Assembly: GCA_040756155.1 (NCBI GenBank)
Contig: JBFLZU010000121.1
Span: forward strand, 1 to 38,850
DNA: 38,850 nt
Source: Nitrospirota bacterium
Lineage (GTDB): Bacteria > Nitrospirota > Thermodesulfovibrionia > JACRGW01 > JBFLZU01
Direction: 5' to 3'
Shown: positions 10,023 through 29,432 of the stretch, one piece after another
Numbering within the stretch: the stretch's first letter is position 1
How the letters are laid out: the number at the start of each line of letters is the position of its first letter
Made by a program: the position numbers and the translations under genes
Notes under the pieces: generated by a model
The model's input: only the letters and a program-made list of their open reading frames with translations
What the model was told of the DNA's origin: nothing
Databases searched by the model: none

Positions 10023-10036
10023 GTAAAAGGTGAAGG

Positions 10037-10068
10037 GATACCCCAAAAAATCACAAGATTTTTGGGGG
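10037..10068. repeat. CCCCAAAAA-type palindrome, copy A, with flanking direct repeats
   Basis: Left arm CCCCAAAAAATC (10041-10052), 4-nt loop, right arm GATTTTTGGGGG (10057-10068). The left 17 bases GGATACCCCAAAAAATC (10036-10052) are identical to copy B at 18117-18133. The element is bracketed by the 8-bp direct repeat AAAGGTGA (10026-10033 and 10069-10076), which could be a target-site duplication. It lies between the kinase and the regulator genes. Confidence 0.75.
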
Positions 10069-10078
10069 AAAGGTGATT

Positions 10079-11473
10079 ATGGCAACTATTCTTGTAGTTG
10101 ACGACCAGAAGAGTGTTCTCTACTCCTTCCAAAGGGTCTTTGGAGAAGAGGGTTACAGGGTTATTACAGCCCAGTCCGCTGAAGAGGCTATAGAAACTGT
10201 TAAAAAATCGCCACCCGACCTTGTCATTATGGATATAAAGATGCCAGGGATGGATGGACTTGAGGCATTGGAGATAATGAAGGGGTTTTATCCAAAACTT
10301 ATGGTCATAATCATGACAGCCTACAGCACAACAGAGAAGGCTATTAATGCCATAAAACTCGGTGCATACGACTATATTGTAAAGCCTTTTGACAATAAAC
10401 ACTTAAGGGAAGTAGTTGAGCGAGCAATAGAGGCAAAAAGGATAATGTCAGAGGTAGTAACCTTTGAGGGTGAAGAACAGGAGACAGAAGAAAGAATTGT
10501 TGGTAGTAGCTCCGGGATGATCGAGATTTACAAAAAGATAGGGAAGATCGCCCCAACAGAGGCGACTGTCCTTATAAGGGGCGAAAGCGGTTCAGGCAAA
10601 GAACTTATTGCAAGGGCGATTTATCACCACAGTTTCAGGGCTGACAGATCTTTTATGACTGTAAACTGTGCTGCTATACCAGAAGGACTTCTTGAGTCAG
10701 AACTTTTTGGCTACGAGAGGGGTGCCTTTACAGGAGCAGATGTCAGGAGGATTGGCAAATTTGAGCAATGTAGCGGTGGAACTATCTTTCTTGATGAGAT
10801 AGGAGATATGTCTCTACCTTTGCAGTCAAAGGTTCTGAGGGTTCTTCAGGATGGGACCTTTCAACGACTTGGAGGCAATGAGATTATAAAGACCGATGTG
10901 AGGGTTATTGCAGCTACAAACAGAAATCTTGAAGAAATGGTGAAAAATGGCTCTTTCAGGGAGGACCTTTACTACAGGTTGAATGTGGTCAGTATCAGCA
11001 TACCTCCACTGAGGGAGAGAAAAGAGGATATTAAGGAACTTGTCCAGTATTTTGTCAGAAGGTTCAATAAAGAGTTAAAAAGAAATGTAAAGGGAATCGC
11101 CTCTGAGATATTAAAGAGGCTTGAAGAATACAACTGGCCTGGAAATGTGCGGGAGTTAAGAAATATTATTCAAAGGGCAATGGTCTTCTGTCAGAAGGAT
11201 TATCTCTCCTTTGAGTGTATAGAGTGCAGTGACCTTTTTGAGAAGCCTGCCTCAGTATCATCCCGCAGGGATATAGAAGAATCCTTCCTCAACATCATTG
11301 ATGCATACCTGAGAAATGGTGGCAGTGTTTTTCAAGAGGCAATCTCAACCTTTGAAAGACTTTTAGTCAAAAGGGCACTTGAACTTACAAATGGAAATCA
11401 GGTTCATGCTGCAAGACTCCTCGATATTGCAAGAAATACCCTGAGAAGCAAGATCGAAAATTCCAAAGAATAA
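10079..11473 (+). CDS. Sigma54-dependent NtrC-type response regulator
   Basis: A 464-residue transcription activator. Receiver domain 1-120 with acidic pocket Asp8/Asp9 and phospho-acceptor Asp52 (MDIKMPGMDG). AAA+ domain from about 137 with VGSSSGM, Walker A GESGSGKE, the sigma54-contacting loop GAFTGA, Walker B GTIFLDEIGD and the arginine-finger region. The C-terminus is a Fis-type helix-turn-helix (ELTNGNQVHAARLLDIARNTL). I start at ATG 10079 (MATILVVDDQ), with AAAGGTG about 4 nt upstream; a GTG at 10073 in frame is less likely. The Shine-Dalgarno is the right-hand copy of the repeat that flanks palindrome A. A sigma54 promoter lies only 4 nt after its stop codon, in front of the molybdoenzyme operon. 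Confidence 0.95.
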   Translation: MATILVVDDQKSVLYSFQRVFGEEGYRVITAQSAEEAIETVKKSPPDLVIMDIKMPGMDGLEALEIMKGFYPKLMVIIMTAYSTTEKAINAIKLGAYDYIVKPFDNKHLREVVERAIEAKRIMSEVVTFEGEEQETEERIVGSSSGMIEIYKKIGKIAPTEATVLIRGESGSGKELIARAIYHHSFRADRSFMTVNCAAIPEGLLESELFGYERGAFTGADVRRIGKFEQCSGGTIFLDEIGDMSLPLQSKVLRVLQDGTFQRLGGNEIIKTDVRVIAATNRNLEEMVKNGSFREDLYYRLNVVSISIPPLRERKEDIKELVQYFVRRFNKELKRNVKGIASEILKRLEEYNWPGNVRELRNIIQRAMVFCQKDYLSFECIECSDLFEKPASVSSRRDIEESFLNIIDAYLRNGGSVFQEAISTFERLLVKRALELTNGNQVHAARLLDIARNTLRSKIENSKE

Positions 11474-11476
11474 TCC

Positions 11477-11493
11477 TGGCATTAACCTTGCTT
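11477..11493 (+). promoter_or_regulatory. Sigma54 (-24/-12) promoter of the molybdoenzyme operon
   Basis: TGGCAT-N5-TTGCTT, with GG at 11478-11479 and GC at 11490-11491, exactly the spacing of a -24/-12 element. It reads towards the ferredoxin-molybdoenzyme-chaperone genes and sits next to the gene for an NtrC-type activator. The predicted start is near 11505, giving a leader of about 345 nt that carries several repeats. Upstream activator sites would have to lie inside the end of the regulator gene. Confidence 0.65.
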
Positions 11494-11524
11494 AATCCTT
11501 CCTTTGTGAACTGAAGACTTCTAT

Positions 11525-11690
11525 TGAGATTGTGGAGCCTGTTCCGACCCCGTATTAAATACGGGGGAGGAATCTCCGAGTTTGCTTTACTCCTTACAAT
11601 GACAGAAAAATGGTGTCATTGCTTGATTTGTCATTGCGAGTCCCGATATTCATCGGGATAAACTCCGGTGAAGCAATCTCGTATTTTGGA
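11525..11690. repeat. Dispersed GAGATTG/GTCATTGCGAG repeats in the sigma54 leader
   Basis: Bases 11525-11547 are a near copy of 1480-1502. They are followed by the palindrome CCCCGTATT-A-AATACGGGG (11548-11566), CTTACAATGACAG, and a second unit GTCATTGCGAG containing the hairpin TCCCGAT-ATTC-ATCGGGA (11641-11658), ending AGCAATCTC. This fills most of the 11474-11850 gap. In the predicted leader RNA these would fold into strong hairpins. Confidence 0.6.
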
Positions 11691-11733
11691 CAACAATAAG
11701 GTAGTAATAGCCGTGCAGAAAATGAGCAATGAG

Positions 11734-11763
11734 TTCAAAGATTATACATTCAAAGATTATACA
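11734..11763. repeat. Perfect 15-bp tandem duplication
   Basis: TTCAAAGATTATACA occurs twice without a gap. Same unit length and copy number as the unrelated duplication at 1271-1300. Confidence 0.7.
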
Positions 11764-11783
11764 GGAGAAAGGGGGTGAAATAA

Positions 11784-11818
11784 GTTTAGAGTTAAGAGTT
11801 CAGAGTTAAGAGTTTAGG
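11784..11818. repeat. Heptamer tandem array, five units (GTTNAGA)
   Basis: Five consecutive 7-bp units: GTTTAGA, GTTAAGA, GTTCAGA, GTTAAGA, GTTTAGG. It lies 33 nt before the ferredoxin gene start. Rotated, the units read AGTTAAG, fitting the AGTNARR theme shared with the other arrays in the window. Confidence 0.7.
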
Positions 11819-11850
11819 GATGGTTTGATTTTTTATGAAAGGAGGAGAGG

Positions 11851-12516
11851 ATGGCTAAGAAATATGCTTTACTGGTAGATTTAAGGAAGTGCGTTGGATG
11901 TGCCTCCTGCCAGGTGAGCTGCAAGATGGAAAATAGCGGGCCAATTGGCAGTTTCAGGTCTAAGGTGGATATTGCAGATGTAGGAAGATATCCAAAGGCA
12001 AAGAGGCATTTCTTCCCGAAGTTATGCAATAACTGTGAGGAGCCACCATGCATCCTCCCGTGTCCTGTAAAAGGCGCAACATACAAAAGGGGAGACGGCA
12101 TAGTCATGGTAAACAGAGACCTCTGCATAGGCTGTGGAAGGTGTGTGGAAGCCTGTCCCTATGGTGCAAGGTATCTACATCCACACATACCTGTTAAGAA
12201 TGATCCGAAACCTTATGCAAAGGATGTCCCTGAAGTAAAGGACAAAAAGGCTAAGGATCTCAGGGTTGCTGACAAGTGCGATTATTGCAGCCATAGACTT
12301 GCAGCAGGAATCGAAGAACCTGCCTGTGTGCGTAACTGTATGGGAAGGGCAAGGGTCTTCGGGGACATGAATGACCCTAAGAGCAAGATTGCAAAACTTA
12401 AGGCGGCTGTGAAGACTATGGACTGGCATCCAGAGTATGGTACGAAACCCAAGACACCGTATATCGTAGTTGATAAAGCCGTGTTTAAGACAGCCGATGG
12501 TAAACTCAATAGATAG
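11851..12516 (+). CDS. 4x[4Fe-4S] ferredoxin subunit of a molybdoenzyme (beta subunit)
   Basis: A 221-residue electron-transfer subunit without its own signal peptide; it would be exported by hitch-hiking on the Tat signal of the catalytic partner. Cysteine groups: CVGCASCQVSC (14-24), CNNCEEPPCILPCP (59-72), CIGCGRCVEACP, and CDYC...CVRNC, enough for four [4Fe-4S] clusters. A strong Shine-Dalgarno AGGAGGAG precedes ATG 11851. It is the first gene of the operon placed under the sigma54 promoter and is followed 11 nt later by the catalytic subunit. Close relatives in general design are the PsrB, TtrB and ArrB subunits. The operon has no NrfD of its own, so the upstream NrfD complex is the likely electron partner. 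Confidence 0.92.
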   Translation: MAKKYALLVDLRKCVGCASCQVSCKMENSGPIGSFRSKVDIADVGRYPKAKRHFFPKLCNNCEEPPCILPCPVKGATYKRGDGIVMVNRDLCIGCGRCVEACPYGARYLHPHIPVKNDPKPYAKDVPEVKDKKAKDLRVADKCDYCSHRLAAGIEEPACVRNCMGRARVFGDMNDPKSKIAKLKAAVKTMDWHPEYGTKPKTPYIVVDKAVFKTADGKLNR

Positions 12517-12527
12517 GAGGTGATAGT

Positions 12528-15368
12528 ATGCAGATATCAAGAAGGGTATTCTTAAAATATACAGGTGCGGTTACAGCAGGTGCTGCCATTGTAGAGAGCG
12601 GTCTTTTATCCCTGAAAAAGCTCTCACCAGACGAGGCAGAGGCAATGCAGAAGGCAATGGGCAAGTATGAGGTAAAATACACCGCTGACTGTATGTGTCC
12701 GAGTGAGTGTGCAATGGAGATGTGGGTTAAGGATGGAAGGATCCATAAAATCTATGGCAATCCGGCAGCTCCCTTTAATGATGGTATTGCCTGTGCAAAA
12801 GGTGCCTCAGGAGGTCAACTTGTTTATTCCCCTTACAGACTCAAGTATCCAATGATAAGGGTTGGTGCAAGAGGAGAGAATAAGTTCAAGCGCGTTACAT
12901 GGGACGAGGCTATAGATTACATTGGCAGAAAACTTATAGAGATAAAGAAAAAATATGGTCCTGAATCTGTTATCATGGACTGCGGTGATATCACAGACAG
13001 AGACCATTACTACAGGCTCTTCTTTGCCTATGGAACCCCAAACACTACAGAGCATGGCGCCATATGTGATACCCCGAGGAGGCATGGGCCAAAACTCATG
13101 GTTGGCGGTAAAAGGTGGGAACCTGATGTAATGAGACCTGTTCATGTCAGACAGCCTGATGGCTCAATAAAGAAGGATTACACCTACAAGACAAAACTCA
13201 TTATCTACAATGGATGGAACCCCTTTGTTGCAACGAGGATAATGTATGAAAACAGGGGAACTGTTGGTGCAAAGGTAGAAAATGGCTGTAAGGTAATAGT
13301 CATTGACCCATGTTACTCAAACACAGCCACTGCTGCAGATATGTGGCTTGCACCAAGAGCAGGCACAGATGGTGACCTATTTGGGGCAATGCTCAGATAC
13401 ATCCTTGAGAATGATAATCAGAGTGACCCGAAGAAGAGATACATTAACTGGAGCTTCAAGAAATACTCTGTAGGCTGGGATGAATTTGAGGCTGCATTTA
13501 AGTCATGGTGGCAAAGGAAAGACCCTATCAATGGCTTAAGCTATTTCAGCCTTGAGTGGGCAGCAGAGAGAACAGGGCTACCAAAGGATAAGATTGCAGA
13601 AGTATCTCATCTCTTTGGCATCACAAAGCCCGCAGCCATTATCTGGGGCATGCAGTCGCCGGGGCACCATTTTAACGGATACTGTGCCTCTATATTAGGT
13701 GTGGCTCTTAATGTGATTACAGGCAACTTTGACGCACCAGGAGGTGCTATTGACACAGAGATAACAAAATCCAGCAAAGGTGGAACCGCAAGCGGAGGAT
13801 TCTTCAAAGGCAGAAAAGTCAAAAAAATGATAGACGGCAAAGAGGTAGAGGCAAAACAGGGTGAGCTCCATATGGACCTTTATGGTGATTGGCCCTCTGC
13901 ATGGGACGAGGTTGTTGGAGATTATCCCCATGCGTTTCTTAATGGTGTGACTCTGAGATACGGACCTTTCAGGGGACATAAATACCCTATAAAGGCGTAC
14001 ATCCTGAGGACAGGGAATTCCGTCATCTCAGGGAGTGCAACATGGAAGTGGAAGGAGGCACTCACAGCAAAGGATGCATCCGGCAATTACAAGGTGGAAC
14101 TTATGGTCTTCATAGACACCCTCAATCTTGAAAGCGCACTGTATGCAGATGTCATTCTCCCAGAGGCGAGTTATGCAGAGAGGATGAGCCTCTCCGACAT
14201 ATATCCTTCTTTCCCGCTGATATATCTGAGAGACCCTGCAATACAACCTCTCCATGAGTCAAAGAAGCCGACTGACATTATGAACATGCTCGCAAAGAAA
14301 CTCCATGAACTCGGCGATACAGACATAAAACCTTCTGACTTCTGGGAGAAGTATAAGTCAGAGGAAGACTTTGTGAATGAGATGCTTCTGGTTTCACCAG
14401 GAAGGCATAATGTTGGCGAGCCTCTGCCTTATCCAAAATATCCAGAGGGATACCAGATACTCGGAACACCTGAATCACTGGAGAAAGGTGAGGTTACCAT
14501 TGATGATACAAAGAAGGTAATAAAGGGCAAGCCTGTTACGGTTGAGTGGATGAGAAAGAACAACGGTGTTGCTGTATGGGTTATGAGCTGGTATAGATAC
14601 AAAAAGGTTGGAAAAGACGAGCCGAATAAGGCATGGCCGTATACCTCAACAAAACTCATTGAGTTCAAGTGGGATTGGAAAGAGGGTGATAAGAGATACG
14701 GTCAGTATAAGTCCTACAACGAGAAGATTGAAAAATCAGGCGAAGTTCCAAAAGGGCTTAAGAGGATTGGTTTTGATAAATTCCCGTCAACCTTCTACTG
14801 GTTTGAGACTATCTGGAATCCATACACAAATCCTGATTATAAGAAATATGCGAAGGACTATCCGTTCCAGCTTATCACAGGCAGGGTGCATCATGCCATG
14901 ACAGGGACACAGATGGTTGCATGGCTCGGAGAGTTGAAAACAGAAGGCACATGGCAGCCTCTGAATAAGGAGTTTGAGCTTGAGGTTCCTGAGGCAAATC
15001 CATTAGGTCCTGAGCCATTCAAGAACATTCAGAAAAAATTCAAGGCAAATACCTATTCTGTAGGGACCGTCTGGATGAATACAGATGATGCAAAGAGGCT
15101 CGGTATAAAGACAGGTGACCTTGTGATTGTGGAGAACCCCCTCGGCAGATCACAGAAGGGCAAGGCATTTGTTTCAGGAGGCATAAGGCCCGGTGTGATA
15201 AAGATTGCCTTTGGTGCAGGAGGAAGATTCAGCCCTGGGATGGGACCTGCATACAAAAGCAAGGACTACACAGCCGACCATAACATGCTTGTTGACCCAG
15301 ATGCCCTGAGCCCCATCATGGGACAGACTGCCTATGCGGATATGATTGTGAGGGTGAAAAAGGCGTAA
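12528..15368 (+). CDS. Tat-exported molybdopterin oxidoreductase, catalytic subunit (PsrA/TtrA/ArrA-like, substrate unknown)
   Basis: Predicted periplasmic bis-molybdopterin guanine dinucleotide enzyme of 946 residues, longer than PsrA/PhsA and nearer TtrA or ArrA. A twin-arginine motif SRRVFLK (4-10) starts the signal. The proximal [4Fe-4S] site is odd: Cys55, Cys57, Cys61 and Cys89, that is C-x-C-x3-C-x27-C, whereas the family norm is C-x2-C-x3-C; Asp54 occupies the usual first position. The likely metal ligand is Cys180 in HGAICDTPRRHG. Further conserved stretches include GWNPFVATR and the C-terminal dinucleotide-binding domain with LITGRVHHAMTGT. Shine-Dalgarno GGAGGTGAT precedes the ATG. 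Expressed with a beta subunit and a TorD chaperone, and regulated by a PhnD-like sensor. Plausible substrates are oxyanions or sulfur compounds (arsenate/arsenite, tetrathionate, polysulfide, selenate); I cannot choose. Confidence 0.88.
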   Translation: MQISRRVFLKYTGAVTAGAAIVESGLLSLKKLSPDEAEAMQKAMGKYEVKYTADCMCPSECAMEMWVKDGRIHKIYGNPAAPFNDGIACAKGASGGQLVYSPYRLKYPMIRVGARGENKFKRVTWDEAIDYIGRKLIEIKKKYGPESVIMDCGDITDRDHYYRLFFAYGTPNTTEHGAICDTPRRHGPKLMVGGKRWEPDVMRPVHVRQPDGSIKKDYTYKTKLIIYNGWNPFVATRIMYENRGTVGAKVENGCKVIVIDPCYSNTATAADMWLAPRAGTDGDLFGAMLRYILENDNQSDPKKRYINWSFKKYSVGWDEFEAAFKSWWQRKDPINGLSYFSLEWAAERTGLPKDKIAEVSHLFGITKPAAIIWGMQSPGHHFNGYCASILGVALNVITGNFDAPGGAIDTEITKSSKGGTASGGFFKGRKVKKMIDGKEVEAKQGELHMDLYGDWPSAWDEVVGDYPHAFLNGVTLRYGPFRGHKYPIKAYILRTGNSVISGSATWKWKEALTAKDASGNYKVELMVFIDTLNLESALYADVILPEASYAERMSLSDIYPSFPLIYLRDPAIQPLHESKKPTDIMNMLAKKLHELGDTDIKPSDFWEKYKSEEDFVNEMLLVSPGRHNVGEPLPYPKYPEGYQILGTPESLEKGEVTIDDTKKVIKGKPVTVEWMRKNNGVAVWVMSWYRYKKVGKDEPNKAWPYTSTKLIEFKWDWKEGDKRYGQYKSYNEKIEKSGEVPKGLKRIGFDKFPSTFYWFETIWNPYTNPDYKKYAKDYPFQLITGRVHHAMTGTQMVAWLGELKTEGTWQPLNKEFELEVPEANPLGPEPFKNIQKKFKANTYSVGTVWMNTDDAKRLGIKTGDLVIVENPLGRSQKGKAFVSGGIRPGVIKIAFGAGGRFSPGMGPAYKSKDYTADHNMLVDPDALSPIMGQTAYADMIVRVKKA

Positions 15369-15379
15369 AGACAGTGGAT

Positions 15380-15462
15380 AGTGTCAGTGGTCAGTGTCTG
15401 TAGTCTTGACGCTGGCCATTGACACAAACCATTAATGCAGACTAGCACTAAACACTGACACT
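15380..15462. repeat. Inverted repeat between catalytic subunit and chaperone genes
   Basis: AGTGTCAGTG (15380-15389) and CACTGACACT (15453-15462) are exact reverse complements. The left arm lies in a degenerate stretch with roughly 7-bp periodicity (CAGTGGA, CAGTGGT, CAGTGTC). The hairpin could lower expression of the chaperone relative to the enzyme. Confidence 0.5.
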
Positions 15463-15486
15463 GCTCACTTAAACTAAGAGGTAATG

Positions 15487-16092
15487 ATGATCGAAGCACT
15501 TAAAGAAGAGCTTTATTTATACAATCATTTGAGGCATTTATTTTTGAAAGAACCGACAAAGGAGATACTTAACGAGATAGGTAACATAGAAGTTTCTCCT
15601 GAGAATAATGACGATGTAGTTACTGGATTAAGATTGATAGTGGATTCTGTTAAAAAGAATGAGGATTATCTTGATAAATGGATTGAAGACCTTGCTGTTG
15701 AGTATGCACGATTATTTATAGGTCCTGCAAACCCACCAGCCCCACCTTATGCATCCTTTTATCTCTCTGAATCACATTTCCTCATGACAGATGAGACGAT
15801 CGAGGTCCGAAAAAAATACCTTGAAGCAGGACTTTCGGTTAAAGAACTTTATAGCGTCCCTGATGACCATATAGGAATAGAGCTTGAGTTTATCTATTAT
15901 CTCACAGGAAAAACAATTGAATCTTTTGAGAAAGGAGAACGGGAAGAGGCATCAAGGTTTTTTGAGATACGGAGTGATTTCATTCGAGAGCATTTCTCCA
16001 GATGGGTACCTGAATTCATAAATAATATTCTCAATTTTACCACCGAAGACCTCTATAGAGGTTCTGCCATTCTGCTCAGGGGATGTTTATAG
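15487..16092 (+). CDS. TorD/DmsD-family molybdoenzyme maturation chaperone
   Basis: Cytoplasmic chaperone that binds the Tat signal of the molybdoenzyme and helps cofactor loading. The 201-residue all-helical protein has the family signature EYARLFIGPANPPAPPYASFY (in its first half) and DDHIGIELEFIYYL in the second, the conserved D-H...E pattern of TorD/DmsD/NarJ proteins. Two ATGs lie in tandem; 15487 has the better distance (5 nt) to AAGAGG at 15476-15481, 15484 is the alternative. It is the last gene of the operon and ends 2 nt before the stop codon of the convergent aminotransferase gene. Confidence 0.88.
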   Translation: MIEALKEELYLYNHLRHLFLKEPTKEILNEIGNIEVSPENNDDVVTGLRLIVDSVKKNEDYLDKWIEDLAVEYARLFIGPANPPAPPYASFYLSESHFLMTDETIEVRKKYLEAGLSVKELYSVPDDHIGIELEFIYYLTGKTIESFEKGEREEASRFFEIRSDFIREHFSRWVPEFINNILNFTTEDLYRGSAILLRGCL

Positions 16093-16094
16093 TC

Positions 16095-17258
16095 TTAATT
16101 TTTCTTGCCACCAATAGTGGTCAGTGGAAGGGCTTCCCGTATACAGTTACAAACGGTTTCTATTTGTTCTTCTGTAAGTTCGGGGAACATCGGGAGTGAT
16201 ATTACTTCAGTGGATGCCCTTTCGCTTTCTAAAAGGTCTCCATTTTTATAACCAAGAAATCTGAATGCCTCCTGCAGGTGTAGAGAAAGAGGATAATATA
16301 TCGCTGATGCTATGGATTCCCTTGAAAGTGATTCTGAAAGGATATCCCTAAGGTTTTTATTTTTGACTTTTGACTCTTGACTCTCTGACTGTGTTCTTAT
16401 TGTATAATGGTTATACACATGGTAACAGCCTTCCATTTCTGCAGGGACAGTAATCGGCAATCCTTCTAAATAATCGCTATAGATGGAAGCATTCTTTCTT
16501 CTCAGTCTGTTATATTCATCAACCCGTTTCAGCTTAACCCGCAGGATGCCTGCCTGTATTTCATCGAGCCGGCTGTTAAAACCTATGACTGAGTGATGGT
16601 ATTTCTTTGTGCTGCCATGATTTCTGAGTCTTTTTACCTCTGAGTAAATTTCTTCGTCATCTGTAATAACCATACCTCCATCACCATAACATCCGAGATT
16701 CTTACTCGGGAAGAAACTGAAACACCCTGCATCTCCAAAGGTGCCGATTTTTCTACCTTTGTAGACTGCTCCGAATGCCTGGGCACAATCCTCTATAACC
16801 CTGAGCCCGTATTCCTCTGCTATCTTCACTATCTCATCCATCTCTGCTGGATGACCGAAGAGATGAACAGGGAGGATCGCCCTTGTCCTCTCTGTAATCT
16901 TTTCTCTTATTCTTTGTGAGTCTATATTGTATGTATTGGGGTCAATGTCAACAAAAACAGGGATAGCATCGAGATAGGAGATAGTCTCTGCCGTAGATGC
17001 AAAGGTAAATGGCGTAGTTATCACCTCATCACCTCTACCTATCCCACATGCCCTCAATGCCAGATGCAGGGCATCAGTCCCTGAAGCAACACCTACCGCA
17101 AACCTCACACCGTGATAATCAGCTATCTCCCATTCCAGTGCCTCTACATTTGGACCGAGGATGAATCGTGTGTCTTTTAATATATCATTTATGACAGCCT
17201 TAATCTCATCTTCTATTTGAAGATATTGCTGTCTGAGATCAACCAGTGGTATATTCAT
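16095..17258 (-). CDS. gnnB: DegT/DnrJ/EryC1 aminotransferase, probable UDP-2-acetamido-3-keto-glucose aminotransferase
   Basis: PLP enzyme of 387 residues. The Schiff-base lysine is Lys186 in FFPSKNLGCYGDGG, with the pyridine-binding Asp157 in IEDCAQAFGA and the cofactor phosphate region GVASGTDAL (56-64). It overlaps the dehydrogenase gene by 4 nt and is the last gene of an lpxD-fabZ-lpxA-lpxI run. In Acidithiobacillus and Leptospira, GnnA and GnnB convert UDP-GlcNAc to its 3-amino derivative for LpxA, and gene order there is likewise lpx-linked; this context supports GnnB over a generic sugar aminotransferase. Residues about 290-303 (rich in Ser, Glu, Lys, Asn) are an insertion encoded by a heptamer array. 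No downstream terminator: the TorD gene converges 2 nt away. Confidence 0.85.
   Translation of the reverse strand: MNIPLVDLRQQYLQIEDEIKAVINDILKDTRFILGPNVEALEWEIADYHGVRFAVGVASGTDALHLALRACGIGRGDEVITTPFTFASTAETISYLDAIPVFVDIDPNTYNIDSQRIREKITERTRAILPVHLFGHPAEMDEIVKIAEEYGLRVIEDCAQAFGAVYKGRKIGTFGDAGCFSFFPSKNLGCYGDGGMVITDDEEIYSEVKRLRNHGSTKKYHHSVIGFNSRLDEIQAGILRVKLKRVDEYNRLRRKNASIYSDYLEGLPITVPAEMEGCYHVYNHYTIRTQSESQESKVKNKNLRDILSESLSRESIASAIYYPLSLHLQEAFRFLGYKNGDLLESERASTEVISLPMFPELTEEQIETVCNCIREALPLTTIGGKKN
16361..16389. repeat. Heptamer array inside the gnnB coding region
   Basis: Units on the plus strand: TTTTGAC twice, TCTTGAC, TCTCTGAC. On the coding strand this reads AGTCAAG/AGTCAAA, encoding the low-complexity segment around residues 291-300. 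It keeps the reading frame open and falls in a surface region between the large-domain strands. Confidence 0.7.
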
Positions 17259-18274
17259 TGGGGGTTCCTTTTAGCAATTTCTGAGACTATCAGGGCAATC
17301 CTCAGCGCCTCTCTTCCATCAATACCTGATACAGCAGGTTTTGTTCTGTTACTCACCGACTGAATGAAGGCGGTGATTTCTTCCCTGAGGGGCTCTTTCT
17401 TGTTAACCTTTATTGTCTCCGTAATCTGATATGGTTTCCCACCATCACTTATGGTATTCCTCGAGATAGCAATCTCAAGGGTTTGATAGTTAAGTGATAT
17501 ACATGCATTTGATTGAAAGAACCGTATTTCCCTTACCTTTTCAGGTGATACCCTGCTCACGGTTATGTTTGCTATACATCCATTTTCAAAGACCAATCTC
17601 GCGTTGGCTAAATCTAACAGTGGTGTAAGCACAGATGAACCACAAGCTCTTACTTCTTTCACATTTGAGTTAACAAGGCTCAGGATGATATCTATATCAT
17701 GAATCATAAGATCAACCGTGACATCTACATCTGTCCCTCTCTCCACAAATGGTGCAAGTCTTTGAGAGTCAACGAAAAAGGGTGCATCAATTATATCAGA
17801 TAATACACTGACAGCTGGGTTAAAACGCTCAGAATGCCCAACCTGAAGAATAACTCCCTTTTTCTCAGCCCTCATAATAAGGTCATCTGCTTCATTAAGC
17901 ATAGTTGTAATTGGCTTTTCTATAAGGATGTCTATACCTTCATCAATAAACTCAGAGGCCACGGCGTGGTGAAGAGATGTAGGCACAGCAATGCTTACAG
18001 CATCTACTTTATCCATTATCCCGTGATAATCCTTAAATGCTGAAACACCATATTTCTCCGCTATGTCTTCTGCCCTCCTAAAATCTATGTCTGCAACACC
18101 TACGAAGTGTACATCAGGATACCCCAAAAAATCTTGCGATTTTTTTGGGGCCCCAGAACTGAGTTCCGAGTATATACGGGCATGATGCTGTCCCAGATAC
18201 CCAACACCAATCACACCAACCCTGATCTTTACCTTCGGGCTTTCGCCGTCAAGGGCGAAGCCTCTATTGCTCAA
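17255..18274 (-). CDS. gnnA: Gfo/Idh/MocA NAD-dependent dehydrogenase, probable UDP-GlcNAc 3-dehydrogenase
   Basis: A 339-residue oxidoreductase with Rossmann motif GVGYLG near residue 23, EKP (catalytic lysine region, about 119) and a C-terminal alpha/beta domain with HDIDI. Predicted to oxidise the 3-hydroxyl of UDP-GlcNAc, giving the ketone that GnnB transaminates. Start is TTG at 18274, overlapping the last codons of lpxI; no better in-frame start occurs before the Rossmann fold. Two palindromes are built into the gene: one encodes residues 6-13 and one (copy B of the CCCCAAAAA family) encodes GAPKKSQDFLGYP at about 41-53, between the first helix and second strand of the NAD domain, where related proteins have a short turn. 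Confidence 0.85.
   Translation of the reverse strand: MSNRGFALDGESPKVKIRVGVIGVGYLGQHHARIYSELSSGAPKKSQDFLGYPDVHFVGVADIDFRRAEDIAEKYGVSAFKDYHGIMDKVDAVSIAVPTSLHHAVASEFIDEGIDILIEKPITTMLNEADDLIMRAEKKGVILQVGHSERFNPAVSVLSDIIDAPFFVDSQRLAPFVERGTDVDVTVDLMIHDIDIILSLVNSNVKEVRACGSSVLTPLLDLANARLVFENGCIANITVSRVSPEKVREIRFFQSNACISLNYQTLEIAISRNTISDGGKPYQITETIKVNKKEPLREEITAFIQSVSNRTKPAVSGIDGREALRIALIVSEIAKRNPQ
18117..18154. repeat. CCCCAAAAA-type palindrome, copy B, inside gnnA
   Basis: GGATACCCCAAAAAATC, loop TTGC, GATTTTTTTGGGG, CCCC. Its left 17 bases equal those of copy A. It is translated in gnnA as APKKSQDFLGYP without breaking the frame. Confidence 0.85.
18238..18262. repeat. GC-rich palindrome at the gnnA start
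   Basis: GGCTTTCGCC (18238-18247), 6-nt loop, GGCGAAGCC (18254-18262). It encodes the extra N-terminal residues of the dehydrogenase and follows its TTG codon closely; as RNA it would form a hairpin at the ribosome landing site. Confidence 0.55.
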
Positions 18275-19100: not shown

Positions 19101-19128
19101 TTCTCACTTCTCACTTCTTACTTCTTAC
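19094..19128. repeat. Heptamer array across the lpxI start
   Basis: Units on the plus strand: CTTTCAC, TTCTCAC twice, TTCTTAC twice (coding strand AGTAAGA/AGTGAGA). It fills almost the whole lpxA-lpxI gap and contains the GTG start of lpxI. Confidence 0.75.
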
Positions 19129-19133
19129 TGTCC

Positions 19134-19904: not shown

Positions 19905-19909
19905 ACCCC

Positions 19910-20362: not shown

Positions 20363-20363
20363 A

Positions 20364-21449: not shown

Positions 21450-21489
21450 CTTAATATCCTACCACCAATGCTTCGCGATCTTCGATTCC

Positions 21490-22020: not shown

Positions 22021-22041
22021 TTACCCCCTGTAGAATATCTC

Positions 22042-22117
22042 AGGATTAAAGGATTAAAGGGCTAAGGGGTAAGCAACTTATACCTTAATCCTTACCCCTT
22101 ACTCCTTACTCCTGTAG
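22042..22117. repeat. Two short tandem arrays in the bamA-ompH gap
   Basis: Bases 22083-22117 hold five heptamers: CCTTAAT, CCTTACC, CCTTACT twice, CCTGTAG (coding strand AGTAAGG theme). Bases 22042-22072 hold AGGATTAA twice, AGGGCTAA and GGGGTAA. TAAGGGGTAAG (22063-22073) and CTTACCCCTTA (22091-22101) are inverse complements, so the two arrays can pair into a hairpin. Confidence 0.7.
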
Positions 22118-22118
22118 T

Positions 22119-24368
22119 TTAGAAGAATGTTCCGAAACTAAATTCAATTTTGCTTCCAGATTCTCCTGCTTTTCTGTCTAACTTTCTACCCCACTCAAGG
22201 CGTATAGGACCGATAGGGGATATCCAGCGTATACCTGCACCTGCAGATCTCCTCAATTTTGATAGTTTTGTCATCGATTCTCCCTCTCCGAAACCATATC
22301 CTTGATCATGGAATATAACACCTTTGAATTTTATAGCCTTTACTATCGGGAAGATATATTCAAAATTGAAGATAAGTTCCTTTACGCCTCCGATCTTTTC
22401 TCCTGCGGCATCTTTCGCACTCGCCTCACCCCAGCCGAATCCCCTGACTGTGCCCAATCCACCTACATAAAACCTCTCATAGAGAGGAAGTTTTTTATTC
22501 CTCAATCCATCCGCATATCCAACAATTCCTCTCGCAAGGAATGTTGTATCAAGCGGAAGAGGGAAATACCACCCAGTTTCACCTATAGTCTTATAGAAAT
22601 AGTTGTCTCCACCCAGTCCTGCATACATAATATAAATACTGTTGCGTGAACCCCTCGTTGGATCAATATAGTTATCCCTGCTATCCCTCACAAGGTCCCA
22701 GCCGATTGAACTCGTTGTTTTTTTACCTTCCTGCTCTCTAATTGTACTCGATGCACCAGCCGCTATATCAAATATTTCAGCCTTCTCATAATTGTATGTA
22801 ATACTGCTACTTACATATTCAGTAAAACTCTTACCGAGTGAAAGCTCAAGACCACTCGCCTTTCTTTTATAGTCTATAAACTGTCTTTCCTGTTTGTATA
22901 AACTTGTGCCTGCAGAGATTGGTTTGTCCATAAGCCATGGTTCACGGAAACTGAGGACATAGTTTTTTCTCCGTTTACCAAATTCACCCCTGAATCTTAA
23001 CTTCTGTCCTGTACCCTCAACATTTGCCTGTGCTACCTCTGCTGTGGCAATAAAACGGTCAATATTACTGTATCCACCACCAACACTCACAGACCCTGTT
23101 GGCCTCTCCTTAACATTTATATGGATATCCATTACATCTTCAGCTGGTTTTGCCTCAGGGATCATATCTACCGATTCAAAATAATTGAGGTTATTTATCC
23201 TATCGTAGCTACGTCTCATAAGTTTTGTGTTGAAAAGATCGCCCTCATCAAGCCTCATCTCCCTTCTTATGACTTTATCCCTTGTGGTTGTGTTCCCTGA
23301 GATGGTAATCCTTCCAACCTTTACAGGGCTCCCTTCTTTTATATCGAGCGTTATGTTCATCGTCTTTGTCTCTTTATCCGTAGTAATCAATGGGGTAATA
23401 TCAACAAGGGCATGACCCTTTTCTGAGTATGCATCTGTGAGAGAGGAAATATCTCCCTGCATTGTCTCACGGCTGAATGGCTTACCTTCTTTTATCTTTA
23501 TAAGCTTCCTGATCTCCTGAGTGGTGAGAACCTTATTCCCCTGCATCTTTATCTCTTTTACCCTGAACTGTTCACCTTCATCTATCTTTATTGTTATATA
23601 CATCTCTCTGCCATCTTTGCTCAGGGTTATTCTTGGCTCTTCTACCGCAACCTGGATGTAACCCTTATTATAATATACTGATTTAATCCTCTCGATATCT
23701 GCTGCCATCTCATCTTTCTTATATATACCTGATGAATCAATCCATGAAAAGAGCCAGCGTTTCCTGGTCTTCATAGCCTTTTTAATTTCTTTTTCTTTAA
23801 TAGCCTTATTCCCTTCGATAATAATGTCTTTTATCTTAACCTTAGGACCCTCCTCTATCAGGTATGTGAGGGTTACTTCCTCTCTGGAGATACTCTTTAC
23901 AACAGGTGTAATCTTTGCATGGTAGTAACCTTCTTCCTGATAAAGTGCAGCAATTCTGTCTGTGTTGTTGGCTATAAGGGATTGATTTAATACTTCCCCT
24001 GGCTTAATAGTTATCTTTCCCACGAGGGTTTCGGTATCAATCTTCTTATTACCTTCTAATCGAACACTGGTTATGGTTGGTTTTTCTATTACTTTGAATA
24101 TGAGCTTGATCCCACCCTCAAAACCCTCAGTCTCTACAGTAATATCATCAAAGTATCCTATCTCATATATTGCCTTAACATCATCAGCAATCCTCTCTAC
24201 AGAAAATGTATCACCAACCTTTGTCTTTATCTTTGATTTTATAGTTGCTTTCTCGATCTTCCTGTTTCCCTGGACATCTATCATCTTAACCTTTATGGCG
24301 TCTTTCTGTGCCATGGCTATAGAACTATATAAAAAAAGCGGTATAAAAAAGATTATTACATGTTTCAT
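22119..24368 (-). CDS. bamA: Outer membrane protein assembly factor BamA
   Basis: Central subunit of the beta-barrel assembly machine in the outer membrane. From ATG 24368 the protein has 749 residues: a signal peptide ending SSIAMA, five POTRA domains (about 25-420) and a C-terminal 16-strand barrel ending in phenylalanine (FSFGTFF), as expected for outer-membrane proteins. The VRGFGWGEAS motif near the C-terminus is the conserved loop-6 VRGF/Y signature. The start at 24386 is possible but lies in the -10 region of the predicted promoter. First gene of the lipid A operon. Confidence 0.95.
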   Translation of the reverse strand: MKHVIIFFIPLFLYSSIAMAQKDAIKVKMIDVQGNRKIEKATIKSKIKTKVGDTFSVERIADDVKAIYEIGYFDDITVETEGFEGGIKLIFKVIEKPTITSVRLEGNKKIDTETLVGKITIKPGEVLNQSLIANNTDRIAALYQEEGYYHAKITPVVKSISREEVTLTYLIEEGPKVKIKDIIIEGNKAIKEKEIKKAMKTRKRWLFSWIDSSGIYKKDEMAADIERIKSVYYNKGYIQVAVEEPRITLSKDGREMYITIKIDEGEQFRVKEIKMQGNKVLTTQEIRKLIKIKEGKPFSRETMQGDISSLTDAYSEKGHALVDITPLITTDKETKTMNITLDIKEGSPVKVGRITISGNTTTRDKVIRREMRLDEGDLFNTKLMRRSYDRINNLNYFESVDMIPEAKPAEDVMDIHINVKERPTGSVSVGGGYSNIDRFIATAEVAQANVEGTGQKLRFRGEFGKRRKNYVLSFREPWLMDKPISAGTSLYKQERQFIDYKRKASGLELSLGKSFTEYVSSSITYNYEKAEIFDIAAGASSTIREQEGKKTTSSIGWDLVRDSRDNYIDPTRGSRNSIYIMYAGLGGDNYFYKTIGETGWYFPLPLDTTFLARGIVGYADGLRNKKLPLYERFYVGGLGTVRGFGWGEASAKDAAGEKIGGVKELIFNFEYIFPIVKAIKFKGVIFHDQGYGFGEGESMTKLSKLRRSAGAGIRWISPIGPIRLEWGRKLDRKAGESGSKIEFSFGTFF

Positions 24369-24376
24369 TTCGGCGT

Positions 24377-24405
24377 AGTATAACATCCACTATCACGACT
24401 GTAAA
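24377..24405 (-). promoter_or_regulatory. bamA operon promoter, start predicted at the ATG
   Basis: Minus strand TTTACA (24400-24405), 17-nt spacer, TATACT (24377-24382). The expected +1 is 24370, two bases before the ATG at 24368; there is no Shine-Dalgarno. Another candidate for a leaderless message. Confidence 0.6.
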
Positions 24406-24423
24406 GAAAAAACAAATCTCTAT

Positions 24424-25134
24424 CTAACTCTCTCCTAAATATGCCTTCCTTATCCTGTTATCCCTGAGGAGATCAGAGGCATTACCCTCCATAACTATCT
24501 TACCTGTCTCTATTACATATCCCCTTTGAGCGAGCTTCAACGCTGCATTTGCATTCTGTTCAACGAGAAGTATTGTAACACCCTCTCTGTTTATATCTTT
24601 GATTATCCTGAATATCTTATTCACTATAATTGGCGCCAGTCCCAGAGAAGGTTCATCCATAAGAAGCATCTTTGGTTTAGACATTAAAGCCCTTCCAATA
24701 GAAAGCACCTGTTGTTCACCACCACTCAGAGTTCCACCTAACTGTCTCTGTCTCTCTTTGAGAACAGGGAAAAGATCAAATACCCATTTCATTGTCTCTT
24801 CGATAAGGTTTTCCTGTCCCTTCCAGATAAAAGCACCCATTTCAAGATTCTCCCTGACAGTAAGCCTCGAGAAAATGCGTCTTCCTTCAGGGACATGAGA
24901 TATACCAAGCTCTACGACCCTGTGTGGTGGTAAATAATGGATTTGTTTATCCATAAAAGATATAGTCCCATTCTGAGGTTTGATGACTCCGGATATAGTC
25001 ATAAGGGTAGTAGTCTTACCTGCACCATTGCTACCTATGAGGCAGACGATCTCCCCTTCATTGACCTTTATATCTATACCTTTCAACGCCTCAATAGGAC
25101 CATAGAATGTATGAATGCCTTCTACTGTTAGCAT
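24424..25134 (-). CDS. livF: Branched-chain amino acid ABC transporter ATPase LivF
   Basis: Cytoplasmic ATPase of the Liv importer. 236 residues with Walker A GSNGAGKTT, signature LSGGEQQVLSIGRAL, Walker B LLMDEPSLGLAP and switch His replaced by the LivF-typical LLVEQNANAAL. ATG 25134 is not preceded by a Shine-Dalgarno: a MITE-like element ends 9 nt upstream and has separated the gene from livG. Last gene of livKHMGF. Confidence 0.93.
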   Translation of the reverse strand: MLTVEGIHTFYGPIEALKGIDIKVNEGEIVCLIGSNGAGKTTTLMTISGVIKPQNGTISFMDKQIHYLPPHRVVELGISHVPEGRRIFSRLTVRENLEMGAFIWKGQENLIEETMKWVFDLFPVLKERQRQLGGTLSGGEQQVLSIGRALMSKPKMLLMDEPSLGLAPIIVNKIFRIIKDINREGVTILLVEQNANAALKLAQRGYVIETGKIVMEGNASDLLRDNRIRKAYLGES

Positions 25135-25143
25135 ACACTTGAG

Positions 25144-25323
25144 GCTGTTGCCGAACCCTTTGAGCGAAATTAGAGGATTTTTGGTAACAAATCCTGGCGA
25201 AGTGGAAGATAAGCAATTTCAACTGTTTGAGCCCGAAGGGCGAGTTTTGAAATTGCCTGTAACGAGCCATTGGATTTGTCAAAAATTCTCTTTAAAAAGC
25301 GAAAGGGATGTTCGGCAACAAGC
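25144..25323. mobile_element. MITE-like 180-bp imperfect inverted repeat between livG and livF
   Basis: The ends GCTGTTGCCGAAC (25144-25156) and GTTCGGCAACAAGC (25310-25323) are inverted copies with one indel. Complementarity continues inwards through GGATTTTTGG.AACAAATCC against GGATTTGTCAAAAATTC, to the central stem GCAATTTCAA (25213-25222) / TTGAAATTGC (25247-25256) around GCCCGAAGGGC. It encodes nothing of note. The whole livG-livF gap consists of this element. Confidence 0.7.
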
Positions 25324-25330
25324 TCCTTTC

Positions 25331-26095
25331 TCAGTGCACCTCTTTTCCCAGATAAGCTTCTATTACCTTTGGATCCTTCTGTATCTCCAGAGGAAGCCCT
25401 TCTGCTATCTTTGACCCATGGTCAAGAACCATAACACTGTCCGATATACCCATAACCACTTTCATGTCATGTTCAATCAGTATAACGGTAATCCCTCTAT
25501 CCCTTATGGTCTGGATCAAACCCATTAAATCAGCAGTCTCCTGTGGATTCATTCCTGCAGCAGGCTCATCAAGTAGCAGAAGTCTTGGGTTCATTGCAAG
25601 CGCCCTTGCTATCTCCAGACGCCTCTGTAAACCATATGGAAGGTTTCTTGCCCATGTATTAGCATAAGGCAGTATACCAACAAAATTGAGTATCTCAAGT
25701 GACCTGTCAAGAAGATTTTTCTCCTCTTCCTTGAATATCGCTGTTCGAAGGAAGGCTCCAAGGGCTCGTGTAGGAAGAAGTCTATGCCCTCCAACCATCA
25801 CATTCTCAAGGGTTGTCATCTCACCGAAAAGCCTTATATTCTGGAATGTTCTTGCTATACCCTTTTTTGCGATTTGATGTGTTCTTAGTCTAACAATATT
25901 TTCGCCATTGAATGTAACCCATCCCTTTGTAGGTGAAATAATCCCGGTAAGGCAATTAAAGAGTGTTGTCTTGCCAGCACCATTTGGTCCAATAATGCTC
26001 AGTATCATTCCATCTTTCACCTTGAAATCTACATCCTCAAGTGCCCTGAGACCACCAAAGACCTTTGTGAGGTCTTTTACCTCAAGTAAAAACAT
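25331..26095 (-). CDS. livG: Branched-chain amino acid ABC transporter ATPase LivG
   Basis: 254-residue ATPase partner of LivF. Walker A GPNGAGKTT, Q-loop TFQNIRLF typical of LivG, signature NLPYGLQRRLEIARAL, Walker B LLLLDEPAAGMNP and switch IEHDM. The C-terminal extension (LEIQKDPKVIEAYLG) is characteristic of the branched-chain amino acid family. Located 29 nt after livM. Confidence 0.94.
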   Translation of the reverse strand: MFLLEVKDLTKVFGGLRALEDVDFKVKDGMILSIIGPNGAGKTTLFNCLTGIISPTKGWVTFNGENIVRLRTHQIAKKGIARTFQNIRLFGEMTTLENVMVGGHRLLPTRALGAFLRTAIFKEEEKNLLDRSLEILNFVGILPYANTWARNLPYGLQRRLEIARALAMNPRLLLLDEPAAGMNPQETADLMGLIQTIRDRGITVILIEHDMKVVMGISDSVMVLDHGSKIAEGLPLEIQKDPKVIEAYLGKEVH

Positions 26096-26124
26096 TTAAG
26101 ACTCCCCCGCTTCTTTCATCTCGA

Positions 26125-27270
26125 TCATCTTCTTAGTGGTGTCCCCAAAAAGTCCAAAGAAGACTTTTTGGGGTGCCCCTTTCCACCAAATAAACCCTGC
26201 GGTCTGAAGACCATAAATAATATCAGGACAGCGCCGACTGCAAGCATTCTATAAGATTCAATACCCCTGAATACCTCAGGGAGTAAAACCAAAATGATGG
26301 CTCCTGCTATAGAGCCAGGTATACTCCCTAAGCCTCCTAAAATAACCATGCAGAGGATGATTATTGATTCAAAGAATGTAAAACTCTCAGGCGAGACAAA
26401 TCTCATCTTTGATGCAAAAAAGACCCCAGCTAAACCTGCCCACAATGCTCCAAAAGCAAAGGCAAGGAGCTTCATTCTGAATGTATTGATACCCATACAT
26501 TCCGCTGCTATTTCGTCTTCTCTTATAGACACCCATGCCCGTCCAATCCTGGAGTTATTTATACGATAGACAGCCACGACGGTGAACATGACAAAGAACA
26601 ACATCAGATAATAAAGATGAACTGGTTGATCGAACCTCAAAGAGCCGATAACAGGGGGGGCAATATTCGGTATTCCATTTGGACCACCTGTAACACTATC
26701 CCAGTTATTCAGTATAAGATGCACTATCTCACCGAATCCGAGTGTAACTATAGCAAGATAATCTCCTCTTAGACGAAGTGCAGGAAAACCAAGCAAAACA
26801 CCTGAAATAGCTGATATAGCCATACCTGCTGGCAGTGCTGACCAGAAGGGAATATTCAAATAAGTTGAAAGGATGGCATAGGTATAGGCACCAACAGCAT
26901 AAAAAGCAACAAAACCAAGATTTAAAAGTCCAGCAAGCCCTACCACAACATTTAAACCTATCGCTAATATTACATAAATGCCTGCAAGTGTTACGATATC
27001 GAGCCAGTAATTATTTGCAACAAGTGGAAAAGCAATTAGTAGGACTGCCATCACAGTTATGTAAACCCTTCTATCCTTTGACTCAAGAAATCCTCCTATT
27101 ACCTGTATCCTGTGAGATAAATTAAATATGCCCGACTCTGATATTCTCCTGATGGGCATCCAGAGCATCCACCCAATGAGTATAGCAAGAGCGAGATAAA
27201 GCCCCTTCAATCCCATAAATGGGATTGCTATAAACCCAAACCAGAGTGCAGCTATCAAGATCGTCTTCAT
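26125..27270 (-). CDS. livM: Branched-chain amino acid ABC transporter permease LivM
   Basis: Inner-membrane permease of 381 residues. An N-terminal region with two or three extra helices (1-90) precedes the core with GIYVILAIGLNVVVGLAGLLNLG and EAA-like AGVFFASKMRFVSPESFTF. The protein would normally end shortly after the family tail FRPQGLFG; here it runs on through GHPKKSSLDFLGTPLRR, encoded by palindrome copy C. The tail is probably a harmless cytoplasmic extension. Confidence 0.93.
   Translation of the reverse strand: MKTILIAALWFGFIAIPFMGLKGLYLALAILIGWMLWMPIRRISESGIFNLSHRIQVIGGFLESKDRRVYITVMAVLLIAFPLVANNYWLDIVTLAGIYVILAIGLNVVVGLAGLLNLGFVAFYAVGAYTYAILSTYLNIPFWSALPAGMAISAISGVLLGFPALRLRGDYLAIVTLGFGEIVHLILNNWDSVTGGPNGIPNIAPPVIGSLRFDQPVHLYYLMLFFVMFTVVAVYRINNSRIGRAWVSIREDEIAAECMGINTFRMKLLAFAFGALWAGLAGVFFASKMRFVSPESFTFFESIIILCMVILGGLGSIPGSIAGAIILVLLPEVFRGIESYRMLAVGAVLILFMVFRPQGLFGGKGHPKKSSLDFLGTPLRR
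26138..26179. repeat. CCCCAAAAA-type palindrome, copy C, in the livM 3-prime end
   Basis: Perfect 12-bp arms CCCCAAAAAGTC (26143-26154) and GACTTTTTGGGG (26162-26173) around a 7-nt loop, with outer GGTGT and TGCCCC. Translated in livM as HPKKSSLDFLGTP, the same frame as copy B. Confidence 0.85.
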
Positions 27271-27327
27271 GCGAGATTCACCTAATTTTGTATTGACTGC
27301 AAAACTGTATCACCGCAGCACTTTCTT

Positions 27328-28230
27328 TTATGCCTTCTCCACCACCTGCCTGCCAAGTAGCCCTGCTGGTCTTAAAAGGAGTATTATTATCAATAACCCG
27401 AAGGCAAATGCATCCTTATACTCACTTGAGATGTAACTGGCACAGAGGCTTTCTACCAATCCAAGTATAACCCCGCCCAGCATTGCTCCAGGTATACTCC
27501 CTATCCCACCGAGTACTGCAGCAGTGAATGCCTTGATCCCTGCTACATAACCAATAAAGTAGTTCACAAGTCCATAATACATAGCCACCATAACACCTGC
27601 TGCGGCGGCAAGTGCAGAGCCTATTATAAAGGTTATAGAGATAACTGTATCTATGTTTATACCCACCAATGATGCCATCCTTTTATCGAGGGCGGTAGCC
27701 CTCATAGCCTTTCCAATCCTTGTTCTGGTTACAAAAAGATGAAGACAGAACATAAGTAATACAGATACAGCAATTATAAACACCTGAAGATATGTTACTC
27801 GTGCATTGAATATATTGAACCCCTCGATGGAGAAAACCCCTGGAAAGACCTTATCTGTTGCGCCCTGAGTAAGCATAACAAAATTCTGGAGAAATATAGA
27901 GACACCGATAGCACTGATAAGTGGTGAAAGTCTTGGTGCGTTTCTTAATGGTTTATAGGCAACCTTCTCCATGGTAAACCCATATGAGGAGACAAAAAAC
28001 ATTGAGACAACCATTGCAATCAGAATAGATATGAAAGGATTATCTATGGTGAACCCGATCGCGGTAAGATAACCGATAACAATAATACTGATATATGCAC
28101 CTATCATGTATATCTCACCATGTGCGAAGTTTATAAGTTCGAGGATACCATAAACCATGGTGTAGCCGAGGGCGATAAGTGCATATACAGCACCAAGTGT
28201 AAGTCCGTTAATAATTTGCTGGAGAAGCAT
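27328..28230 (-). CDS. livH: Branched-chain amino acid ABC transporter permease LivH
   Basis: 300-residue inner-membrane permease with about eight helices. Starts with the typical LQQIINGLTLGAVYALIALGYTMVYG and carries ELINFAHGEIYMIGAY and GGIGSIPGAMLGG, the conserved LivH segments. Starts 3 nt after the livK stop codon. Confidence 0.94.
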   Translation of the reverse strand: MLLQQIINGLTLGAVYALIALGYTMVYGILELINFAHGEIYMIGAYISIIVIGYLTAIGFTIDNPFISILIAMVVSMFFVSSYGFTMEKVAYKPLRNAPRLSPLISAIGVSIFLQNFVMLTQGATDKVFPGVFSIEGFNIFNARVTYLQVFIIAVSVLLMFCLHLFVTRTRIGKAMRATALDKRMASLVGINIDTVISITFIIGSALAAAAGVMVAMYYGLVNYFIGYVAGIKAFTAAVLGGIGSIPGAMLGGVILGLVESLCASYISSEYKDAFAFGLLIIILLLRPAGLLGRQVVEKA

Positions 28231-28233
28231 TAG

Positions 28234-29379
28234 TTATTTATATTCTACAAATTTCCCATCTTTTGTTATCCAGACAACATAAGGCGATACTGTCACATCA
28301 CCCTTTTTGTCAAATTTGATGGTTCCGAGTGCCCCCTTGAATTCGAGGGTGTGGAGTTTCTCTGAGACCTTATTCCCATCAGTTGTACCTGCCTCTTTTA
28401 TTGCTGTTAATAGTATATTGGTAGCATCATAGGCATAGATTGAGTATGGACCATGGGGACCGTAAAGTCTGTTGTAGTTTTCAAGAAACCTTTTTGCGGT
28501 GGGAATATTCATCGGGTCGGGACTGAAGGTAAGGTATGTGCCTTCAGCAGATGGTCCTGCTATCTCAATAAACTTTGGGTCGATAACGCCATCTCCGCTC
28601 ATGAATGGAGACTTAAGAGCAAGCTCCCTTGCCTGTTTAACAAGAAGCCCTGCCTCAGGATATATACCTCCGAAATAGATGAGTTGTGGCTCTTTTCTCT
28701 TAACAGCAGTAAGAACAGCCTTAAAATCCTTATCACCCTGAATTATGCCACCATAATAGAGAACCTCTACCTTGTCTCCGAGTGACTGCTTGAATTCAGC
28801 AGCAAGCCCCTGTCCGTAAGTGGTCTTATCGTGGAGGATTGCTATCTTTTTAATCTTTAGAGTATTTATAACAAATTCTGCAGCCACCTTTCCCTGTTGA
28901 TCGTCTCTACCGCACACCCTGAAAACATTGTTATACCCTTTTTCTGTAAGTTGTGGATTTGTAGACGCCGGGGTAATCATAGGTATGCGTGCCCTGTAAT
29001 AGACATCGGATGCCGGGATTGAACAGCTACTGTTAAAATGACCTATAACACCAACCACACCTGCATTGACCATCTTGTTTGCAACCGATACAGCCTGCTT
29101 GGGATCATGTTGATCATCGCTGACCATCATCTTTATCTTTTTACCTAAAACACCACCTTTTTCATTCCATTCAGAGAGAGCGAGTTCTACTCCATTTTTA
29201 AAATCGAGTCCCATCTTTGCCTGATCCCCACTCATCGGTCCTGCAATCCCTATCTTGATAACATCTTCTTTTTTTGTGCAACCGAAAAGGAAGGTAAACA
29301 CGGAAAGTATGACAATCAGGGCACCCCCAAAAAAATAAAAGATTTTGGGGGACCCCATAATATAGATCGATCTTTTCAT
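28234..29379 (-). CDS. livK: Branched-chain amino acid binding lipoprotein LivK
   Basis: Periplasmic binding component, 381 residues, type I fold, beginning IKIGIAGPMSGDQAKMG and including YGQGLAAEF and ATNILLTAI. I start at ATG 29379, which has AGGAGG at 29386-29391; the upstream TTG is unsupported. The signal peptide is odd: a positively charged start (MKRS) is followed by MGSPKIFYFFGG, encoded by palindrome copy D, then a hydrophobic core and the lipobox LFGC with Cys34. It should be a lipoprotein, on the outer leaflet of the inner membrane or in the outer membrane. First gene of the operon; ligands may be amino acids other than Leu/Ile/Val or short amides. Confidence 0.93.
   Translation of the reverse strand: MKRSIYIMGSPKIFYFFGGALIVILSVFTFLFGCTKKEDVIKIGIAGPMSGDQAKMGLDFKNGVELALSEWNEKGGVLGKKIKMMVSDDQHDPKQAVSVANKMVNAGVVGVIGHFNSSCSIPASDVYYRARIPMITPASTNPQLTEKGYNNVFRVCGRDDQQGKVAAEFVINTLKIKKIAILHDKTTYGQGLAAEFKQSLGDKVEVLYYGGIIQGDKDFKAVLTAVKRKEPQLIYFGGIYPEAGLLVKQARELALKSPFMSGDGVIDPKFIEIAGPSAEGTYLTFSPDPMNIPTAKRFLENYNRLYGPHGPYSIYAYDATNILLTAIKEAGTTDGNKVSEKLHTLEFKGALGTIKFDKKGDVTVSPYVVWITKDGKFVEYK
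29319..29356. repeat. CCCCAAAAA-type palindrome, copy D, in the livK signal peptide
   Basis: CCCCCAAAA (29324-29332) and TTTTGGGGG (29343-29351), with outer GGG and ACCCC. Translated as GSPKIFYFFGG in the livK signal sequence. Confidence 0.8.
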
Positions 29380-29393
29380 TACAGACCTCCTGC

Positions 29394-29432
29394 GAGATAT
29401 CCCCAAAAGCCTTTTAGATTTTTGGAGACCTC
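29394..29432. repeat. CCCCAAAA-type palindrome, copy E, in the livK leader
   Basis: GAGATATCCCCAAAA (29394-29408) opposes TTTTTGGAGACCTC (29419-29432) with some mismatches; the most diverged copy. It lies in the 5-prime leader of the liv transcript, just upstream of the livK Shine-Dalgarno. Confidence 0.6.

Follow-up and report, generated by a model that had tools for sequence, protein, structure and literature searches.

Protein-coding palindromes have been described mainly from Rickettsia and Wolbachia, where such insertions could be tolerated on account of a reduced genome and weak selection. The Rickettsia palindromic elements (RPEs), from Rickettsia and Wolbachia, measure 100-150 bp, and some of them sit within reading frames that stay intact (PMC3767692, PMC10969869). 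Other small repeats offer further comparisons: the REPs are palindromes of 20-40 bp, some of them in coding regions (PMC3733652), and the MITEs with open frames (ERIC, YPAL/RU-2 and the 107-bp form of Correia) are non-autonomous and can fuse in frame with genes (PMC2229807). The palindrome analysed here had been likened to RPEs in a first-pass annotation of the DNA, and in part the likeness stands. As with RPE-1, other RPEs and the Wolbachia palindromic repeats, it is a dispersed, multi-copy palindrome inserted in frame in unrelated, conserved and mostly essential genes whose orthologues lack it, and no mobility enzyme is known for either; PheT, in the source genome, and guanylate kinase, in UBA665, are hosts of both. 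The likeness fails in size and hosts, on which the distinction rests rather than on RPE family sequences: empty sites give 43 and 45 bp instead of 100-150 bp, the arms are stop-free in all frames, and the hosts are free-living anaerobes of several phyla. The MITEs named above differ in that they are about 100-200 bp long with terminal repeats and often target duplications, whereas here there is a single hairpin and no clear duplication. A literature search for the exact element sequence, with most subscription journals and preprints outside its scope, returned unrelated matches only. The element is a real, repeated, RPE-like coding palindrome that falls outside the named families in the membership tests that were run.

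In the window, by which we mean the whole stretch of 38,850 nt analysed, the strict core pattern, CCCCAAAA N4-30 TTTTGGGG, was found at 10041-10067, 18122-18150, 26143-26173 and 29325-29350. A fifth, decayed copy has its core at 29401-29427, where the covariance model scores about 23 bits (E 0.04 per genome), so that the five palindromes reported earlier are all present, four of them exact to the pattern. When 500 versions of the window were generated from a first-order Markov model, the expected number of strict cores was 0, against four observed, and a chance origin of the window palindromes is excluded. Rfam families compared with the window at gathering thresholds gave no structured-RNA match.

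Two of the copies occupy gaps adjoining ribosome-binding sites and three lie in open frames, as first described. Copy A (10033..10069, minus strand, 48 bits) has a TATCCC tail and is placed between the stop codon of a sensor-kinase gene and the ribosome-binding site of the gene that follows, for a response regulator; it has 17 identical bases, GGATACCCCAAAAAATC, in common with copy B. The latter (18114..18152, minus strand, 47.5 bits) lies inside gnnA (17255..18274, minus strand), an open reading frame for a Gfo/Idh/MocA oxidoreductase identified with its homologues, and is read as APKKSQDFLGYP. Copy C (26141..26181, plus strand, 47 bits) is at the 3' end of livM (26125..27270, minus strand), where the peptide HPKKSSLDFLGTPLRR forms the C-terminal tail of a branched-chain amino acid permease. 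Copy D (29319..29358, plus strand, 30.6 bits) falls in the signal-peptide region of a LivK-type periplasmic binding protein (28234..29406, minus strand) and reads SPKIFYFFGGA; both liv open reading frames are named from sequence and operon context, and the true start of the livK-like gene is probably the ATG reading MKRSIYIMG. The decayed copy E (29392..29429, minus strand), the weakest at 23.2 bits, is just upstream of the livK ribosome-binding site.

The source genome (G000, 2.26 Mb, a fragmented assembly) contains 32 strict copies, and the reversed-pattern control gave none. A covariance model trained on 36 copies, with sites counted at E < 0.15, found about 56 distinct sites; two of the matches, on contigs C32 and C87, have identical flanks and are probably one site. 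The element is about 43 bp long and forms a near-perfect hairpin with the stem CCCCAAAAARTC-N4-GAYTTTTTGGGG, in which one pair alternates between A-T and G-C in a compensating manner (14 cells changed on both sides among the aligned copies, vs 5.7 by shuffling). A foot is present on one side only, as TGCCCC, TACCCC or TATCCC in the source genome and as ACCCC in most other genomes, and the loops differ from copy to copy. The arms are free of stop codons in all six frames; 43 of the 56 copies are open in five or six frames, stops coming chiefly from the loop. The hairpins are stable, also within coding mRNA. One copy in the rplE leader region (L026:1573-1613) has an additional loop segment, CTTCGCTTCGCTCGGTGTA. 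Neighbouring hairpins at L171:4745-4860 and L170:5750-5930 have different stems in a common CCCC...GGGGACCCC frame, for example CCCCAGGAAAGCTGCGCTTTCCTGGGGACCCC, and the foot may define a larger superfamily to which they belong.

Aligned with their relatives, the copies are insertions. Der (EngA) of the source genome has two inserts, of 14 and 16 residues, both absent in all 26 class relatives aligned. Compared with solved homologues, extra residues appear at the palindrome in ArgB (14), PheT (about 14) and GyrA (15), and the proposed comparison of GnnA with its homologues gave the same picture, about 16 residues being missing from 7bvj, its best solved homologue; for IspE, the alignment with the best solved homologue is interrupted at the palindrome. 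Further in-frame hosts in the source genome, named by inspection, include SMC (two copies), Mfd, RnfC, a TonB-like protein, TamB, HslU, GltX and MnmG, in a list made via open frames that would therefore under-count frame-breaking insertions. In two independent lineages ArgB (L012, L066) and Mfd (L006, L133) apparently each carry a copy, and its position differs between the lineages.

For the related complete genome G008, empty sites were compared. One clean insert of 43 bp, directly 5' of a ribosome-binding site, has its empty counterpart in G035, G023, G136 and G140, and another of 45 bp, in frame within the ATPase gene of an ABC transporter, has one in G023, G035 and G140. The measured in-gene inserts, a small sample, are 42, 45 and 48 bp, all multiples of three, which the intergenic 43 bp is not. 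No clean target-site duplication was seen at the compared empty sites, and the only similarity at the targets was an imperfect one of 4-6 bases at these two sites. At four other G008 copies (L037a, L037b, L044a and the first in L045) the flanks align too poorly to define an empty site, and for L039 the search found no orthologue usable as one. Looking locally for repeats that occur both with the palindrome and lacking it gave mostly self-matches; the G008 paralogue pair L042/L046 looks like a filled and an empty site. Tandem repeats of the TGAAATTTGAAAT type occur at L039:1980-2130 and 2600-2680 in the same genome, and there are many similar copies in G023, G035, G136 and G140.

The idea that the coding copies are read in one conserved frame did not hold. 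Measured at the CCCC foot, the reading of GnnA is shifted by one base against those of LivM and LivK, LivK also deviates at the right arm, and genome-wide all three frames are in use, a likely reason being that the arms hold no stop in any of them. The commonest reading is PKKSxDFLG, and SPKN/TPKS and PQK (PQKxxxFLG) readings are also frequent.

Orientation follows transcription. Relative to the host or neighbouring gene in the source genome, the foot is upstream on the sense strand at 42 copies and opposite at 9 (p=3e-6), and the clear feet alone give 32:3 (p=4e-7), with gene directions set by hand from a simple coding score. On the sense strand the flanks appear rich in purines, and several of the intergenic copies start immediately behind a stop codon or immediately in front of a ribosome-binding site. 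We infer that the target is a purine-rich sense strand, though the bias may have other causes.

For a repeated family whose copies are inserted relative to relatives with reading frames preserved, we think it likely that we are dealing with a non-autonomous hairpin element moved in trans, with selection keeping the intergenic and frame-preserving insertions; trans mobility, target preference, translation and near-neutrality are the parts that we infer. The enzyme acting in trans on the hairpin of about 43 bp with its asymmetric foot (ACCCC, TGCCCC or TACCCC) would belong to the host or to a mobile element, and the orientation bias would probably come from a preference for purine-rich sense-strand sites, for instance around stop codons and ribosome-binding sites. 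An insert with a length that is a multiple of three, placed in an indel-tolerant loop, would add only a hydrophilic peptide of 14-16 residues because the arms are stop-free in any frame, and the insertions that are not tolerated would be purged by selection. Neither the search for Y1_Tnp genes in G000 and G218, nor the 19 Y1_Tnp loci inspected, nor a search for longer elements in G000 linked a mobilising enzyme to the palindrome. No longer element with the same end is visible in G000, where all 26 ACCCCAAAAARTC sites fall in listed palindromes; the assembly is fragmented, and a multicopy element could be missing from it.

The most obvious candidate for such an enzyme would be a RAYT (REP-associated Y1 tyrosine transposase), the palindrome then being an intragenic REP element moved by single-strand transposition. 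Size and coding location fit REPs (PMC3733652), an asymmetric-foot hairpin and clean empty sites without obvious duplication fit single-strand transposition, and the GTAG/CGTC REPs in particular are of similar size, form hairpins with an asymmetric foot, are frequent at gene ends and are sometimes intragenic (PMC3733652). However, the present family has no tag tetranucleotide at the foot (GTAG and CGTC each occur in 2 of the 56 copies) and no linked RAYT flanked by the repeat: the palindrome is nearby at 0 of the 19 Y1_Tnp loci, the single Y1_Tnp gene of G000 has unrelated ends, GGGACGGTTCTATT, and G218, the richest genome with 21 strict copies, has no Y1_Tnp match at all, which makes this origin unlikely. 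Another palindrome, GGGACAGCCTGGCTGTCCC, lies at 117-136 of the window and at L054:100-125; it is like the GGGACAGCCTGACGG end next to the only Y1_Tnp gene in the source genome and is possibly the REP-like repeat of that gene. It is rather improbable that the copies are regulatory or RNA sites under selection, such as operators, attenuators or mRNA-stabilising hairpins. Many of them adjoin ribosome-binding sites or just follow stop codons, their orientation tracks transcription and the hairpins are stable, but about half are insertions within unrelated proteins or at their ends, the host genes vary between lineages, and orthologues lack the element. We reject a terminator or operator reading on account of the in-gene insertions.

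The remaining readings concern the inserted segment itself. Several decayed coding copies retain the peptide through synonymous changes, such as CCCAAGAAATCC in L209, as would be expected if PKKSxDFLG were under selection, yet the use of three frames and both strands yields unrelated peptides, and we regard selection for the peptide as very unlikely. That ribosomes skip the segment, as in the bypassing of mitochondrial byp elements or T4 gene 60, or that it is cut from the RNA, would suit a stable hairpin within coding mRNA, but bypassing would not need inserts that are stop-free or multiples of three, and the in-gene inserts are both, while the intergenic one is 43 bp; such a process is scarcely credible here. 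An element moved in trans and filtered by selection is the reading that we prefer.

Beyond the source genome, 396 genomes of the phylum were surveyed with a pattern stricter than the core pattern, which was found in 15 of them, a patchy spread with none outside the class of the window, taken as Thermodesulfovibrionia; the reversed control gave 0 throughout. With this pattern there are 21 copies in G218 (UBA665), 14 in G338 (MAG_10313_ntr_31) and 13 in G000; Thermodesulfovibrio sp. N1 (G039) was among the genomes surveyed. In UBA665, which belongs to a different family from the source, 10 of the 21 copies are internal and in frame, in other genes, with SPKN/TPKS and PQK readings only; by inspection the hosts resemble Gmk, RecJ, IspD, Def, Mfd and LigA among others, the guanylate kinase being at L056. 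Among the matches listed from 84,980 species genomes, the hairpin occurs in Clostridia, Dehalococcoidia, Aquificota, Caldatribacterium, Carboxydothermus and others, with the exact ACCCC foot, absent from the search pattern, at 74 of the 118 places. The Clostridia copies frequently abut a ribosome-binding site. Common descent of the hairpin between phyla is plausible. More tentatively, and with some doubt on our part, one hairpin family of about 43 bp with a conserved ACCCC foot may have spread horizontally over several phyla by an undescribed mobility mechanism, one that works on hairpins and favours the sense strand of transcribed genes, repeatedly building loops of 14-16 residues into essential proteins of free-living bacteria.

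The shorter version of such elements described here, inserted independently in Der, SMC, GyrA, PheT, Mfd and further core genes of free-living Nitrospirota, shows that tolerance of these inserts by essential proteins is more widespread. The family is also a compact system in which to study how palindromic elements move, a question open since 2000, and as it is present in several phyla, the question can be tested in hosts that are culturable, among them Thermodesulfovibrio or Carboxydothermus. Two further arrangements were seen in other genomes, the first of which counts against the reading that we prefer. In G338 the palindrome sits inside a repeat of about 200 bp with inverted ends near GCGATAAGGAT (L055, L071, L072, L088, L092, L096, L116, L120 and L128), apparently a separate MITE that carries it, and it spreads along with that repeat. 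In G013 (L059:2480-2600) it forms a tandem array of 41-bp units, each made of the palindrome and ACCCCTAGTACCA.
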